64,000 nt of DNA from Sphingobacterium lactis (GTDB taxonomy: Bacteria; Bacteroidota; Bacteroidia; Sphingobacteriales; Sphingobacteriaceae): NCBI RefSeq assembly GCF_011046555.1, contig NZ_CP049246.1, positions 1,798,001 through 1,862,000 of the forward strand, in the 5' to 3' direction. Under the pieces are notes generated by a model. That model was not told the DNA's origin and ran no database searches. It saw only the letters and a list, made by a program, of their open reading frames with translations. The position numbers were made by a program, and so were the translations under genes. Shown piece by piece: positions 3,037-9,800 of this stretch; the stretch's first letter is position 1, and each line of letters opens with the position of its first letter.

Positions 3037-3900
3037 CTATTTTGTTTCAGAAAATAATGCTGCCGCACCGATGATGGCGGCCTGTTCCTGATATTTACCT
3101 ATCTGAATCCGATAATCCTGCAATAGGGAAGGGTCTGGGAATATTCTGTCCCAAGCTTTTGCTATATTTCCGCCAATAATAAAGAAGCGGCAATCATATT
3201 TTTGGCTGAAGAAGTGAAGGAAATCCAAGAGGTGTTGCTGATATTCCTGCAGCAGTTGCTGCACTTCTTTGGTGTCGCCATGTTGCTCCAGGATCTCGCG
3301 AAGTCCGCTCTCCTGGTAGCCCGATAATTCCTCAAAGCGACGCACGAACCAACGCGTTACGAGGTGCTCCTCAAAAATAGAGGTCTTGTACGGGGTATCC
3401 CACAGATCGGCATCAAAAGCTTTTTCGCCATTGTTCCATACCGCACTGCCCAATCCTGTACCCAAGGTAATGCCCAAAATGCGCTGTTCCTGCTCCAATC
3501 CGCAACCGAAGATCTCCCCCTGTAAAAATGCGGCGGCGTCGTTGATGTAACGGATGTCCAAGTGGCCCTTGCCGATCCCATCCAGTATCGGTTGGGTTAC
3601 CTGCATCTGGTAAATACTGTCGTACTTGGATTGCCCCTTCATCAAAGCAATTCCTTTTTCGTAGTCAAAAGGACCCGGTGCTGCTATACCTACCTGTAGT
3701 ACAGGTTCCTCTGTTTTTGCCAAACAGGCTTTCATGTTGGAGGTCCAATCAAGAAAAATCGATTTAGCATTTTCCGCGGAATTCACATGCGTCCGCGTAA
3801 CAGTATGTTCGAGGATCTGCCATGTGTTTTTTTCGACAATGGCGGAAGTGATATGGGTTCCGCCGATATCACAAGATAGGATATAGTTGCTAGTGTGCAT
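3037..3900 (-). CDS. ROK-family sugar kinase-like protein
   Basis: 287 residues counted from the ATG at 3898-3900; the frame is open to 3939 but that would extend deep into aroC. The N-terminus has the actin-like phosphate loop [13 protein letters not shown]. The middle has [11 protein letters not shown], matching the ROK catalytic Asp segment, followed by [15 protein letters not shown] proteins are usually hexose kinases or sugar-responsive regulators. There is no DNA-binding domain here, so kinase is favoured, for example of glucose or N-acetylmannosamine. The CxCGxxGC zinc motif of most ROK kinases is absent. The start overlaps the aroC stop by 11 bp, so it is probably the last, coupled gene of the aromatic operon although its role there is unclear. 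Confidence 0.75.
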
Positions 3901-4987
3901 GCGTTGAATAGGCCTTATACTTGAGTAAATGGTCAGCAATTACCAGTGCAGCCATGGCTTCAACGATAATTACCGCTCGGGGTACGACACAAGGGTCATG
4001 ACGTCCCTTTCCTGAAATGGTAGTTTCCTGGCCTTCTTCATTGATGGTATCCTGATCGCGCATAATCGTCGCGACAGGTTTGAAGGCTGTTTTGAAGGTA
4101 ATATCCATCCCATTGGAGATACCGCCCTGGATACCGCCCGAGAAATTGGTGATTGTGCTTATTTTGTCGCCATCCTTGACGAAAATATCATTGTGCTCAG
4201 ATCCTAACATCGTAGAACCATCAAACCCCGATCCATATTCAAAACCGTGTACAGCATTGATGCTCATCATGGCTTTCGCCAGGTCGGCATGTAGTTTGTC
4301 GAAGACGGGTTCGCCAAGGCCTACGGGCACATGGCGTATAATGGTGGATATCCTGCCACCGACCGTATCCCCATTCTTGCGGACTTGGTTGATGAAGGTT
4401 TCCATCTCCGCCGCCGTTGCCGGATCGGCACAGCGGACGATGTTCTGCTCTCTTGTTTCCAATAGGGCAGCCAGGTCCTTTGCATCCAGGTTGGGTGCTT
4501 CGATGGTACCCACGCCGGAAACATGTGCAAAGATCTCAATTCCGTGTTTCTTTAGGAACAATTTAGCCACTGCCCCCGCCGCAACACGCGCTGCTGTTTC
4601 CCGAGCTGATGAACGACCTCCACCGCGGTAATCACGGATACCGTATTTAACCTGATAGGTGTAGTCGGCATGGGAAGGACGGAATTTATCCTGAATGTGG
4701 GAATAGTCCTTGGACCGTTGGTCTTCATTCGGAATGATGATGGCAATGGGCGTTCCTGTCGATTTACCCTCGAAAGTACCAGAAAGAATCTGGGCGGTAT
4801 CACTTTCCTTGCGTTGGGTGGTAATCTTGGATTGACCGGGACGGCGCTTGTCCAATTCCGATTGGATAAACTCCTCGTCAATGTCAACCAAGGATGGACA
4901 ACCATCAATAATTACCCCTATAGCTTTTCCGTGTGATTCGCCGAAAGTACTAATCCTAAATAAATCTCCAAATGAATTTCCTGCCAT
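3890..4987 (-). CDS. aroC: Chorismate synthase
   Basis: 365 residues, a normal length for the family. It converts 5-enolpyruvylshikimate-3-phosphate to chorismate, the last shared step of aromatic biosynthesis, using reduced FMN without net redox change. Signature stretches visible are the N-terminal [14 protein letters not shown], a central [19 protein letters not shown] and a late [11 protein letters not shown]. Fourth gene of the pheA-DAHP synthase-aroA-aroC series; 63 bp separate it from aroA and it overlaps the ROK gene. No separate promoter is evident in the spacer beyond a near-consensus TATATTTA. Confidence 0.97.
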
Positions 4988-5050: not shown

Positions 5051-6298
5051 CTAATTTGCCTGTTCAAAGCCATGGTTTTCCAAGTGTTCGTAGAACATGG
5101 GGTATGATTTCTCCACCACCATCGGTTCCTCAATGGTCACCTGCTTGAACACCAACGCCAAAGGCGCAAATGCCATCGCCATGCGGTGATCTTCATAGGT
5201 AGCAATGGTGAGGTCTCCCGGATCCTGAACGTTCGCAGTTTTCAGGTGGTAGGTTTCCCCATCGGCAATCAGCTCCGCTCCGAACTTCGCGATTTCCGTC
5301 TGTAGGGCAAGGATTCGGTCGGTTTCCTTGATTTTCAGGGTTTCCAATCCAGTAAAGGATACATCGCGCTGCAGTGCTGCAGCCACAACAACCACCGTCT
5401 GCGCCAGGTCTGGACATTCCTTGAAGTCGAATACTGTTTTCGAACTTTGGTTGCCTGTTTTCCGCAGGTGCAGGCCGTCGGCTTCAAAACTGGATTCCAC
5501 ACCGAAGTGCGTCATGATCTCCACAATGGCCATATCGCCTTGCAGGCTGTGCTGTTTCAATCCCGGTAGGACGAGTTCGCCAGCCTCTGCCAAAGCAACC
5601 ATCGCATACCAATAGGAAGCGGCGCTCCAATCCGGTTCGACATAAATGGTGGTTTCCTTGTACGGTTGTTTCGCAATATGAATGCTGTTTTCCGTGAATT
5701 CGTAGGAAATTCCGCAATCCTGCAACATGGCGAGTGTCATCGTTACATAAGGTCTGGAGGTCAGCTCGCCCACGATATCGATATGCAAGCCTTTCTTCAG
5801 ATTGGCCGCGATCAGCAGGAGGGAGGAGATGTATTGACTGCTCACATTTCCCTGGATAGCAATGCGGTCCTTACCTTGGATCATGCCACCCTCGATCTGC
5901 AGGGGCGGGAAACCACTCTTCTTTTCGTAATGGATATCGGCACCCAAGTCCTTCAGGGCATCCACGAGGATCCCGATTGGGCGCTGTTGCATCCGTTCGG
6001 TACCGGTGAGGATGAAATTTCCCTTTTGCAGGTTGAGGTATGACGCCAGGAAACGCATAGCCGTTCCCGCCGGACCGATATCGATCGTAGTATAGCCTTC
6101 CGTAGGGGATGCCGCTTGCTGCAATGCTGCGGCAAGGGTTACGGTATCTGCGGCTTCGGACAGGTTTTCAACCTGTACGGCACCTTTGCTCAATGCGCTG
6201 ATAATAAGAGCACGGTTGCTCTCTGACTTGGAGCCAGTAAGTTGAACCGTGCCTTTGATTGTTTTTGAGGGATGCGTTAATACTAAGCTTTTCGCCAT
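5051..6298 (-). CDS. aroA: 3-phosphoshikimate 1-carboxyvinyltransferase (EPSP synthase)
   Basis: 415 residues. It transfers the enolpyruvyl group of PEP to shikimate-3-phosphate. Conserved segments are GSKSESNRAL near residue 24, GPAGTAMRFLAS near 75, and the C-terminal EDHRMAMAFA and KSYPMFYEHL. The start lies only 2 bp after the stop of the upstream DAHP synthase-chorismate mutase gene, so translation is probably coupled. Its product feeds the next gene, aroC. Confidence 0.97.
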   Translation of the reverse strand: MAKSLVLTHPSKTIKGTVQLTGSKSESNRALIISALSKGAVQVENLSEAADTVTLAAALQQAASPTEGYTTIDIGPAGTAMRFLASYLNLQKGNFILTGTERMQQRPIGILVDALKDLGADIHYEKKSGFPPLQIEGGMIQGKDRIAIQGNVSSQYISSLLLIAANLKKGLHIDIVGELTSRPYVTMTLAMLQDCGISYEFTENSIHIAKQPYKETTIYVEPDWSAASYWYAMVALAEAGELVLPGLKQHSLQGDMAIVEIMTHFGVESSFEADGLHLRKTGNQSSKTVFDFKECPDLAQTVVVVAAALQRDVSFTGLETLKIKETDRILALQTEIAKFGAELIADGETYHLKTANVQDPGDLTIATYEDHRMAMAFAPLALVFKQVTIEEPMVVEKSYPMFYEHLENHGFEQAN

Positions 6299-6300
6299 TA

Positions 6301-7407
6301 TTACGCCTCCGCTACAGGTTTAGTGTTCATGACCTCGTTCTGTCTGCGAATCGATTCGTTATGAAGTAATTCTAGGTATTTCGAAGTGAATTCTTCGCTC
6401 AGGTTCAACGCCTTACCCAATTGGATACGCTTCTGAACGATTTCATCCCAACGGTTGATCTGTAGGATCGTTACGTTGTTGTCTCTCTTGAATTCGCCGA
6501 TTTTCTCTGCGATCTTCATGCGGTCAGCGATTTGTTTGATGATCTGGTCATCCAACTTGTCGATCTGTCCACGCAATTCTGTCAATTTATCCTCGAAAGC
6601 TGGGTTGTCAGATTCCGGTTTACGGATGGATAGGGTATCCAATAGATCAGCCAGGGCAGCAGGCGTAACCTGTTGTTTTGCATCTGTCCAAGCTACTGAA
6701 GGATCAATATGTGATTCGATGATCAATCCCTGCATATCCATGTCCATCGCTTTTTGCGTTACGTAAGGGATCAATTCACGGTTACCGCAGATATGGCTCG
6801 GGTCGTTGATGATCGGTAATTCTGGTGCGATCGCTTTCAATTGGATGGCGATATCCCACATCGGTTCATTACGGAATGCTGTTTTCTCGAATGAAGAGAA
6901 TCCACGGTGGATAGCTGCCAATTTCTTGATTCCGGCACGGTTCACACGTTCCAAAGCACCGATCCATAAGGATAGGTCAGGGTTAACCGGGTTTTTGATC
7001 AATACAGGAACATCAACACCCTGAAGGGCATCTGCAATTTCCTGAACGGTGAAAGGGTTTGCCGTTGAACGGGCACCGATCCATAGGATATCAACTCCTG
7101 CGGCTAATGCTTCTTCCACATGTTTTGCTGTTGCAACCTCTGTTGCGGTCAATAGACCGGTTTCCTCTTTCGCACGCTTCATCCACTCCAAACCGATGCT
7201 GCCAATCCCTTCGAATTCTCCCGGGCGGGTACGTGGTTTCCAAATACCTGCACGTAGAACATTCACCTTACCTGTGTTGGCTAGTAAATGTGCAGTCGAT
7301 ACCAATTGCTCTTCAGTTTCAGCACTACAAGGTCCGGCAATGATTAATGGCTTATCTCCTGTGTCTAACCAAGATTTTAAAGGGAGAATGTCTAATGAAT
7401 GTTTCAT
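6301..7407 (-). CDS. Bifunctional DAHP synthase (class I beta) / chorismate mutase type II
   Basis: 368 residues. The N-terminal 270 or so form a KDO8P-synthase-like DAHP synthase that joins PEP and erythrose-4-phosphate: IAGPCSAETEEQ, RAGIWKPRTRPG and NDPSHICGNR are visible. A C-terminal AroQ-type chorismate mutase helical domain follows (about 275-365), starting LTELRGQIDKLDDQI. The enzyme thus catalyses the first step of the pathway and the branch step to prephenate, which the upstream pheA product then uses. Fusion to chorismate mutase often brings inhibition by prephenate or chorismate in such enzymes (family knowledge). Commonly named aroG or aroF in annotations. Confidence 0.95.
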   Translation of the reverse strand: MKHSLDILPLKSWLDTGDKPLIIAGPCSAETEEQLVSTAHLLANTGKVNVLRAGIWKPRTRPGEFEGIGSIGLEWMKRAKEETGLLTATEVATAKHVEEALAAGVDILWIGARSTANPFTVQEIADALQGVDVPVLIKNPVNPDLSLWIGALERVNRAGIKKLAAIHRGFSSFEKTAFRNEPMWDIAIQLKAIAPELPIINDPSHICGNRELIPYVTQKAMDMDMQGLIIESHIDPSVAWTDAKQQVTPAALADLLDTLSIRKPESDNPAFEDKLTELRGQIDKLDDQIIKQIADRMKIAEKIGEFKRDNNVTILQINRWDEIVQKRIQLGKALNLSEEFTSKYLELLHNESIRRQNEVMNTKPVAEA

Positions 7408-7444: not shown

Positions 7445-8275
7445 TTAGATCTTTTCGTTCTTGATGTATTCACCCATGATACTGAAGTTCACGGTGTGTT
7501 TCAATACTTTGCGGATGGCCGCGTCATAATCGGCCTGTTTCTTCCATTCCACGTCCACGTAGAAATCGTATTCATTCCTGCGGCCAACGACCGGCATGGA
7601 CTGGATCTTGCTGAGGTTGACGTTCTGTTCGGCAAAACATTGCAGCACTGAGGCCAATGCGCCGATGGAATGTGAGGTCTGGAAAGATAGGGACGCTTTG
7701 TTGGCATTCTTCTGCTCTTCCAATTCATTGGATAGGATCAGGAAGCGGGTCGAGTTCTTTTTGTTGGTTTCGATACGCTTTTCAAGAATGGTTAAACCGT
7801 ACAATTGCGCTGCTGCCTCGCTGGCAATGGCTGCGGTGTGGGTCAGCTTATCATCCAGGATCTTCTTCGCACATGCTGCCGTATCCATTCCTTCCTTTAC
7901 GATCCATTCTGGGTGATCACTCAGGAATTCATCACATTGGCGTATCGCGATCGGGTGGGATTCGACAAATTGAATATCCGCTAGTTTTACTCCCGGTAGA
8001 GCCAATAGATGCTGCTGTATGTTCAGGTGCACCTCGCCAATGATATGGAAGCGGTAATCCCGCAATAGGTTGTAATTTGGAAGGATACTCCCCGCAATGG
8101 AGTTTTCGATCGCCATAACCACGTAATCTGCCTTCCCTTGCTTCAACATCTCGCAGGTCTTCTTGAAGGAGTCACATTCAATGGTCTCAATCTCCCGGCC
8201 GAAATATTTATAGGCGGCTTCTTCGTGGAAGGAGGCTTTAACCCCTTGGATGGCAATGCGTACTTGATCGTTCAT
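7445..8275 (-). CDS. pheA: Prephenate dehydratase
   Basis: 276 residues, first structural gene after the attenuator. It turns prephenate into phenylpyruvate for phenylalanine. The catalytic part (about 5-185) ends with the TRF motif at 176-178. A C-terminal ACT domain (about 195-275) contains GALASVL (205-211) where Phe-sensitive enzymes have GALxxxL, but the second Phe-binding motif ESRP reads QSMP (225-228). There is no fused chorismate mutase, because that activity sits on the next gene. No tyrA or aromatic aminotransferase gene is present in the operon. The start codon lies 28 bp beyond the U-run of the attenuator terminator. Confidence 0.96.
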   Translation of the reverse strand: MNDQVRIAIQGVKASFHEEAAYKYFGREIETIECDSFKKTCEMLKQGKADYVVMAIENSIAGSILPNYNLLRDYRFHIIGEVHLNIQQHLLALPGVKLADIQFVESHPIAIRQCDEFLSDHPEWIVKEGMDTAACAKKILDDKLTHTAAIASEAAAQLYGLTILEKRIETNKKNSTRFLILSNELEEQKNANKASLSFQTSHSIGALASVLQCFAEQNVNLSKIQSMPVVGRRNEYDFYVDVEWKKQADYDAAIRKVLKHTVNFSIMGEYIKNEKI

Positions 8276-8303: not shown

Positions 8304-8373
8304 AAAAAAAGTCCCTAACTTTTCAGCAGGGACCTCTATATTTCTTTCGCAATAAGATATACTAGTCCCTGCT
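8304..8373 (-). promoter_or_regulatory. Transcription attenuator of the aromatic operon
   Basis: Three complementary segments follow the aromatic codons of the leader ORF (minus-strand order). Segment 1 is AGCAGGGAC (8373-8365), segment 2 GTCCCTGCT (8333-8325) and segment 3 AGGGAC (8316-8311), then seven U (8310-8304). Segments 1 and 2 pair perfectly over 9 bp (antiterminator). Segments 2 and 3 pair over 6 bp, extendable by G-U and A-U pairs, directly before the U-run (terminator). A ribosome reaching the leader stop codon, which abuts segment 1, would block 1:2 pairing and allow termination. A ribosome stalled on Phe, Tyr or Trp codons would leave segment 1 free to pair and let RNA polymerase go on to pheA. 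Confidence 0.9.
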
Positions 8374-8427
8374 CTTATTATAAAAATAAAAGAACCAAAA
8401 GTTTGTATATCCGTATTGATTGTTCAT
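8362..8427 (-). CDS. pheL: Aromatic leader peptide (21 aa)
   Basis: ATG at 8427 to TAG at 8362 on the minus strand. The peptide has Tyr at positions 5, 7, 14 and 16, Phe at 10, 12, 13 and 15, and Trp at 11, so 9 of 21 residues are aromatic, with an FWFFYFY run. It begins about 13 nt after the predicted transcription start and ends in segment 1 of the attenuator. Its composition fits a sensor of charged tRNA-Phe and tRNA-Tyr rather than a functional protein. The symbol pheL follows the name used for leader peptides of pheA operons. Confidence 0.9.
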   Translation of the reverse strand: MNNQYGYTNFWFFYFYNKSRD

Positions 8428-8445
8428 TTCCCGTTTATTTGTTGT

Positions 8446-8476
8446 CAAATATAGAGCTTCTTTAAATAAGTGCAAA
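8446..8476 (-). promoter_or_regulatory. Promoter of the pheA-aroC operon
   Basis: On the minus strand TTTG (8476-8473), a 19-bp spacer and TATATTTG (8453-8446) match the Bacteroidota consensus TTTG-N19-21-TAnnTTTG exactly. Predicted start near 8440, leaving a very short leader before the leader-peptide ATG at 8427. Confidence 0.85.
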
Positions 8477-8886
8477 ATGTTTTTTTAAAATAATTCATTT
8501 TTAGTGGTTTTTATGCAATAAAAATGGATAAAAAATTGATTAAAAAATGCATAAAAATATGGTTAAAAAATGATGTTTTATACGTGTTTTTTGAGTTTAA
8601 ATTTTATAAAACATGTGTTTTAATACATTTAAAAGCATTTTTGTTGATTATTTAGTTAAATAAATTGTGTTAATTTTTTGCTCAAAAAATGCTGTAAAAA
8701 TAGCTGTAAAAATAATTGAAAAATATTTTAAAAATCAGGTGTTAATAGCTTGATATTTTGGTGATTTTTACCTGTTTTTAATAAATTGTTTATAATTTCT
8801 AAACATTGGAGAATGTGTTTTTTCCTGTTTTTCGGAAAAATAGGGGTTCAGTGCGTTCCGATTTCGGAGGGTATGTGGTAAAAGGA
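8477..8886. other. AT-rich intergenic region with phased A-tracts
   Basis: About 400 bp without a credible gene, strongly AT-rich. Between 8520 and 8570 five A-tracts (8520-8524, 8530-8535, 8542-8547, 8553-8557, 8565-8570) are spaced about 11 bp centre to centre, close to the helical repeat, so the DNA should be curved. The tract lies 45-100 bp upstream of the -33 element of the aromatic promoter. Confidence 0.6.
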
Positions 8887-8933: not shown

Positions 8934-9800
8934 TTGCATATTATTATGGTTTTTATCCTGCTTTCTGTCCTCTGCTCTGTCATTGTTTCCATCCTGATCA
9001 AATGGGCTAGGCAGCGGGGAATAAATTATCTGCAGTTATTGGTGTGGAATTATCCGATTGCCCTGCTATTGACCTATGTGGTGTTGAAACCTGAGCTTGT
9101 CCCTTGGACGTCCGATTTACCTTGGCACCTTTACCTCCCTTTGGGCTTCCTTTTGCCTTTTATCTTTATATGTATTGCACTTTCCATTCGGTATGGTGGT
9201 ATCGTGAAAACGGAGGTTGCCCAACGGCTCTCTTTATTCATACCGCTGATTGCTGCCTACCTGTGGATGAATGAGCAGTTCCTGCCGCAGAAATTTGTAG
9301 GCATCGCGGTGGGGCTGGTTGCCATTGTATTCTCCATCGGCTGGCAGAAAGGGGGAAGTGGCCATGAACGTTCCTATTGGGTATTCCCTTTGCTCGTATT
9401 CGTTGGTATGGGCATCATCGATATTATTTTTAAGCAAATTGCCCAACACGATGGTATAACCTATATGTCTTCCCTATGGATCGTATTTGTGCTTGCCCTG
9501 TTCTTTGCCCTATTGTTCCTGCTGTATCTCTTGTTCATACGGAAAGAACGCTTTGATGGAAAGGCTGTGGGTTACGGTGCAATACTTGGTCTGTTCAATT
9601 TCGGAAATATTGTGTTTTACATGAAGGCCCACCGTGCCCTCCCAGATAGTCCTTCGCTGGTCTTTACGGGGATGAATATTGGCGTAATTGCCGTTGGTGC
9701 CCTTGCCGGTGTCCTGTTATTTCGGGAGAAGCTTAGCATTTACAATAAAATTGGGGTATTTTTGGCGATTGTTTCAGTATTATTAATAGCATTTCTGTGA
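8934..9800 (+). CDS. DMT/EamA-family membrane transporter
   Basis: 288 residues, almost entirely hydrophobic, with about ten membrane segments arranged as two EamA-like halves, as in the drug/metabolite transporter superfamily. Substrate cannot be read from sequence; relatives export amino acids, nucleobases or drugs. The start could also be the ATG four codons downstream (8946). The stop overlaps the GTG start of the next gene by 4 bp, indicating translational coupling with the IMPACT-family gene. Confidence 0.85.
   Translation: MHIIMVFILLSVLCSVIVSILIKWARQRGINYLQLLVWNYPIALLLTYVVLKPELVPWTSDLPWHLYLPLGFLLPFIFICIALSIRYGGIVKTEVAQRLSLFIPLIAAYLWMNEQFLPQKFVGIAVGLVAIVFSIGWQKGGSGHERSYWVFPLLVFVGMGIIDIIFKQIAQHDGITYMSSLWIVFVLALFFALLFLLYLLFIRKERFDGKAVGYGAILGLFNFGNIVFYMKAHRALPDSPSLVFTGMNIGVIAVGALAGVLLFREKLSIYNKIGVFLAIVSVLLIAFL

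Follow-up and report, generated by a model that had tools for sequence, protein, structure and literature searches.

The leader region of the pheA operon

The question raised by this locus is whether the short region preceding pheA in the Sphingobacterium window (the whole stretch of DNA analysed, 64 kb in length) controls the aromatic amino acid operon through translation of a leader peptide, and which amino acids such a leader would sense. Our analysis revealed an element that is real and functionally constrained; the best explanation of it, and a well-supported one, is a leader-peptide attenuator of three segments responding to Phe and Tyr, a kind of system already known. The operon in question consists of four genes:

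7445–8275, minus strand: pheA, prephenate dehydratase, with its ATG at 8275 (PF00800, E 6.5e-57)
6301–7407, minus strand: DAHP synthase-chorismate mutase fusion, DAHPS-CM (PF00793 and PF01817)
5051–6298, minus strand: aroA, EPSP synthase (PF00275, TIGR01356)
3890–4987, minus strand: aroC, chorismate synthase (PF01264, TIGR00033)

The gaps between these genes, read from pheA to aroC, amount to 37, 2 and 63 nt, and over 100 loci of the family show the same gene order. This spacing and the conserved order suggest that pheA, DAHPS-CM, aroA and aroC are co-transcribed. A ROK-family gene (3037–3939, minus strand), which scores under all NCBIfam cut-offs, shares 50 nt with the end of aroC in the window; a gene of this family is located 3' of aroC in about 50 Sphingobacterium loci.

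The putative attenuator region spans positions 8477 to 8304 of the minus strand, and all of its parts were verified base by base:

8473–8477, minus strand: -33 promoter element TTTTG (TTG at 8475–8473), 19 nt from the -7 box
8446–8453, minus strand: -7 promoter element TATATTTG (TAnnTTTG)
8362–8427, minus strand: leader peptide ORF MNNQYGYTNFWFFYFYNKSRD, 21 codons, stop codon TAG
8380–8400, minus strand: core regulatory run Phe-Trp-Phe-Phe-Tyr-Phe-Tyr, codons 10–16, in which codons 13–15 form the F-Y-[FY] core
8365–8373, minus strand: segment 1, AGCAGGGAC, the 5' arm of the antiterminator, overlapping the last leader codons
8325–8333, minus strand: segment 2, GTCCCTGCT, the arm common to both hairpins
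8311–8316, minus strand: segment 3, AGGGAC, the 3' arm of the terminator
8304–8310, minus strand: U7 tract of the intrinsic terminator, the predicted end of an attenuated RNA of about 138 nt

The leader MNNQYGYTNFWFFYFYNKSRD is thus a short frame rich in codons for end products, situated 5' of a biosynthetic operon, and its 21 codons include 4 Phe, 4 Tyr and 1 Trp, exactly as the earlier note had read them. Segment 2 is shared by an antiterminator, in which it forms 9 Watson-Crick pairs with segment 1, and by an intrinsic terminator; the two structures are mutually exclusive. This arrangement of three segments, likewise proposed previously as a 9-bp antiterminator with an alternative terminator ending in U7, was confirmed at every base, and both helices covary among relatives. 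The leader RNA folds more stably than all 200 of 200 dinucleotide shuffles (z -3.5). Just 5' of the leader ATG, a GAGAC stretch recurs in many relatives (e.g., L006, L010, L050), and CGGGA is found at this place in the window; the stretch may act as a signal for translation initiation, classical Shine-Dalgarno sites being absent from this phylum.

A fitting promoter for the leader is provided by TTG-N19-TATATTTG, the -33 half of which falls beyond the interval 8304–8453 to which the element had been assigned in the earlier note. We take TTG/TAnnTTTG to be the -33/-7 promoter pattern of Bacteroidota. Counting both strands, the 64 kb window contains only three sites of the form TTG-N18-20-TAnnTTTG, one of them exactly at the leader. 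Among distinct family leaders, 105 of 109 carry the TAnnTTTG motif within 60 nt 5' of the leader ATG, and nearly all of these have TTG at a spacing of 18–20 nt. Transcription is predicted from this arrangement to start near 8441. The consensus promoter described earlier is hence present but is of the Bacteroidota type, not of the E. coli-like TTGACA type. A sigma-70-type pair TTGACA/AACAAT, delivered by a promoter scan, was rejected, since AACAAT (8424–8419) sits inside the leader ORF and the pair cannot serve the leader.

Conservation of the leader and its link to DAHP synthase

A pheA gene like the query was detected in 43 of the 60 nearest genomes. An aromatic leader was present 5' of pheA in all 110 loci inspected (110/110), which comprise 30 loci from the nearest genomes and 80 named loci of Sphingobacterium, Parapedobacter, Olivibacter, Daejeonella, Albibacterium and others, the two sets partly overlapping. 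A further 95 loci were found via Pfam PF00800, 40 of them in the family and 55 in other families of the class. All 40 of the former, from 21 other genera, possessed the leader, as did 36 of the 55 from other families. An automated rule recognized the terminator in 30 of these 36 leaders, and in several of the remaining six it was plain by eye (L166, L170, L188, L205). The leaders total 181, of which 140 are distinct.

A blind scan of 1.65 Mb on both strands, searching for ATG-initiated ORFs of 10–45 codons that contain a stretch of 9 residues with 6 or more aromatic ones and have a hairpin and U-tract nearby, returned 147 matches. Since 145 of these leader-plus-terminator matches precede pheA and only 2 lie elsewhere, a chance arrangement is excluded. 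The check that had been suggested for this locus, an alignment of pheA upstream regions, thus bore the proposal out: the leader ORF, its aromatic codons and the three segments are retained throughout the genus and the family and in a large part of the class, with substitutions that compensate one another.

In other families of the class, pheA is usually followed by an aminotransferase, a TyrA-like dehydrogenase and DAHPS-CM, the names of the two middle genes being read off the sequences with no database search behind them. Outside the family, DAHPS-CM was located within about 6 kb in 35 of the 36 loci with a leader, as compared to 3 of the 19 without one; this co-occurrence has a P of 5e-10 when counted by locus and 2.5e-4 by family, and contig ends may hide some copies of DAHPS-CM. 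The leader thus accompanies DAHPS-CM in the operon, as would suit a sensor of the two products that share this entry step. Operons of pheA lacking both a nearby DAHPS-CM and a leader (L155, L156, L159, L160, L168, L169, L173, L174, L180, L192) belong mostly to one family (f12); operons with this gene order may have lost the leader or never acquired it.

Predicted amino acid specificity of the leader

The F-Y-[FY] core is nearly invariant: among 108 distinct family leaders its first position is Phe in 107, the second is Tyr in 107 and the third is Phe or Tyr in all 108. Of the 764 codons at core positions -6 to +2 that begin with TT or TA, none ends in a purine, while T and C endings both occur (at position +1, 55 TAT and 52 TAC). 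Such a pattern is expected from selection on Phe and Tyr and not from a conserved DNA motif; selection acts on the encoded residues, beyond the DNA alone.

The place of Trp is different. A Trp codon lies inside the run of the window leader and likewise in 31 of the 108 distinct family leaders, which would suit a leader-peptide attenuator sensing Phe, Tyr and Trp equally. However, the run of the other 77 family leaders contains no Trp, it occurs in only 5 of 32 leaders from elsewhere, and the trpE gene in this genome carries a Trp-Trp leader of its own, so that Trp supply seems to have a separate sensor. Trp is consequently optional, and equal sensing of the three amino acids is very unlikely. 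Judged by its codons, the sensor is one of Phe and Tyr, with Trp a minor and unconserved part; the earlier description of the leader as sensing Phe, Tyr and Trp together holds for the first two and fails for Trp as an equal signal.

Covariation, geometry and predicted switching

Pairing of the segments was assessed in a MAFFT alignment that comprised 115 distinct sequences and was built blind to pairing. The pairs of the window were kept in 89% of alignment cells for segments 1 and 2 and in 99% for segments 2 and 3; in a control in which one partner was slid by 1–3 columns, pairing reached at most 57% and 64%, respectively. At the most variable core position, the triples formed by segments 1, 2 and 3 were C-G-C, U-A-U, A-U-A and G-U-A, the window species carrying the three-way variant A-U-A where most have C-G-C. 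Anchoring of the segments for these triples, as for the geometry and the masked folding described below, relied on complementarity, of which the MAFFT pairing test is independent.

The distance between the aromatic run and the antiterminator is steady: in 113 of 115 leaders, 11–17 nt (mostly 13–14 nt) separate the beginning of the last core aromatic codon from that of segment 1 downstream. The leading edge of a ribosome lies about 12 nt beyond the first base of its A site, which accounts for this steady distance, as a ribosome stalled on the run would only just clear segment 1. The stop codon is found anywhere from 8 nt before to 25 nt after the start of segment 1, a range of 33 nt; given the same edge, a ribosome at any of the observed stops covers segment 1 or the adjacent loop. 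The stop lies before segment 1 in several clades and about 25 nt past its start in others, with the distance of the aromatic run steady throughout (L009, L010, L012, L038, L051 and L100 versus L006, L014 and L020).

Masked folding was applied to the RNA lying between the ribosome edge and segment 3. With the ribosome stalled on the last core aromatic codon, the pairing probability of segments 1 and 2 exceeded 0.5 in 114 of 115 leaders; with the ribosome at the stop, it did so in none of the 115. This outcome was stable for assumed edges of 11–14 nt. In silico, the codons are accordingly placed such that a stalled ribosome frees the antiterminator arm and a finished one covers it. These models agree with the original proposal that stalling on the aromatic run would favour readthrough and arrival at the stop would favour termination.

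Full equilibrium folding of the whole leader gave the window species a terminator probability of 0.0 in the stalled state and 0.89 at the stop. Only a few species besides that of the window switched in this way; for the majority of relatives, the terminator beats the antiterminator in both states, even with segment 1 free. Dominance of the terminator at equilibrium is what would be expected of a constitutive intrinsic terminator in the 5' UTR that acts independently of translation and to which the leader ORF is incidental. This explanation is nevertheless highly improbable: constraint on the aromatic residues is visible at the level of their codons, segment 1 shows both conservation and covariation with segment 2, and no upstream gene runs into the terminator, the neighbour at 8934 being divergent. 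The victory of the terminator at equilibrium in most relatives indicates instead that the switch must rely on the order of synthesis, as in classical attenuators. Whole-leader equilibrium folding, which ignores this order, was set aside as a test of the switch, being uninformative for most relatives.

A riboswitch sensing Phe or Tyr directly, through binding of a metabolite or protein, would similarly present itself as a structured 5' RNA with an expression platform. We regard it as extremely improbable, given that no conserved aptamer-like sequence exists beyond the leader ORF and the three segments, that the spacer between segments 1 and 2 varies in length and sequence, and that no Rfam riboswitch matches the element.

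Proposed mechanism

The element is very probably a three-segment, ribosome-mediated transcription attenuator sensing the supply of Phe-tRNA and Tyr-tRNA. This reading is based on the sequence, conservation, coding constraint, covariation, geometry and in silico folding; ribosome stalling, termination in vivo and a response to starvation are what we infer from them. RNA polymerase would start near 8441 and a ribosome would load onto the leader ORF. When charged tRNAs for Phe and Tyr abound, the ribosome would reach the stop and cover segment 1, segment 2 would pair with segment 3, and transcription would end at 8304. When Phe or Tyr is short (perhaps also Trp in some species), the ribosome would stall on the F-Y-[FY] run, the last codon of which is predicted to lie far enough 5' to leave segment 1 free. 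Segments 1 and 2 could then pair before segment 3 is synthesized, pre-empting the terminator, and pheA, DAHPS-CM, aroA and aroC would be transcribed. The scheme assumes that the leader is translated without a classical Shine-Dalgarno site and that transcription and translation are coupled in Bacteroidota. The switch can work only if a ribosome trails RNA polymerase closely, and the leader could thus serve as a direct reporter for this coupling.

On a broader scale, we consider it rather likely that Bacteroidia possess a class-wide family of three-segment Phe and Tyr attenuators which tracks DAHPS-CM operons, with a conserved distance from run to antiterminator and a mobile stop codon. Such a family would imply close translation behind RNA polymerase in Bacteroidota despite the lack of a classical Shine-Dalgarno site.

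Relation to known systems

The enterobacterial pheA leader is Phe-only and comprises four segments. E. coli pheL-pheA (RF01859) likewise attenuates pheA in a ribosome-mediated manner via a Phe-rich leader peptide, whereas the Sphingobacterium leader uses three segments and both Phe and Tyr, and its promoter and operon differ. An Rfam search (release 15) with the window leader and eight other loci found no family above cut-off. For RF01859 (Phe_leader), the window scored 22.1 bits against a gathering cut-off of 55, and the best match among the eight other loci was 39.3 bits (L182). Bacteroid-trp RNA (RF01692, PMC2864571) is a candidate cis-regulatory RNA of Bacteroidota tied by its name to trp genes; it gave no match at E≤10 for the window or at E≤1 for the other loci tested, and the trpE leader of the same genome does not match it either.

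According to a 2010 survey, leader-peptide systems had not been shown beyond Proteobacteria and Actinobacteria (PMC2965389). A putative attenuator was, however, predicted in 2005 for the pheA>hisHb>DAHPS-CM>tyrA operon of Bacteroides thetaiotaomicron (Merino database; PMC1173090, Table 7). This operon of the same phylum shares the first gene and contains DAHPS-CM, and its table entry gives a putative attenuator only, naming neither a leader peptide nor the amino acids sensed. Small ORFs resembling leader peptides have been described in the B. thetaiotaomicron transcriptome (PMC7366714). The transcriptome of Flavobacterium psychrophilum (2021) was reported to offer strong clues that amino acid operons are attenuated through leader peptides, along with an unclassified structured 5' element that lies before pheA, is transcribed and is conserved in Flavobacteriaceae (PMC9723704). 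The latter is likewise a structured leader but belongs to another family, and the main-text section describing it presents no segment model or codon analysis. The kind of element is known, and the reports on these two species foreshadow the pheA case in Bacteroidota. The earlier remark that such control is little described in Bacteroidota is about right, while "undescribed" would be wrong given the B. thetaiotaomicron prediction. The anatomy of the leader, its spread across the class and the link to DAHPS-CM were not found described in the main texts of open-licence papers. In a large phylum for which reports after the 2010 survey had given only hints (PMC7366714, PMC9723704), our comparative data constitute strong evidence of attenuation mediated by the ribosome, and they supply an RNA family with no above-threshold match in Rfam release 15.

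Other leaders in the same genome

Further biosynthetic operons of the 4.03 Mb host genome were also inspected. The ilvD gene is internal to an operon and has no leader, and no evident leader, terminator or attenuator accompanies the tyrA and aminotransferase pair (G000:C1:3120494, L210) about 1.3 Mb from the pheA operon. Upstream of hisG (G000:C1 near 3181250, L206), a His-rich leader ORF MKITCTHLYVMHHRHCGDRY lies 3' of a TACTTTTG box, and no clear intrinsic terminator was seen in this region. The trpE gene (G000:C1:1167722) is preceded on the reverse strand, near 1169000, by the leader MTTTNQYTNRWWLLTK (L207), with the segments AGTCGGG, CCCGACG and CGTCGGGC-U7 in the same layout as in the pheA leader.
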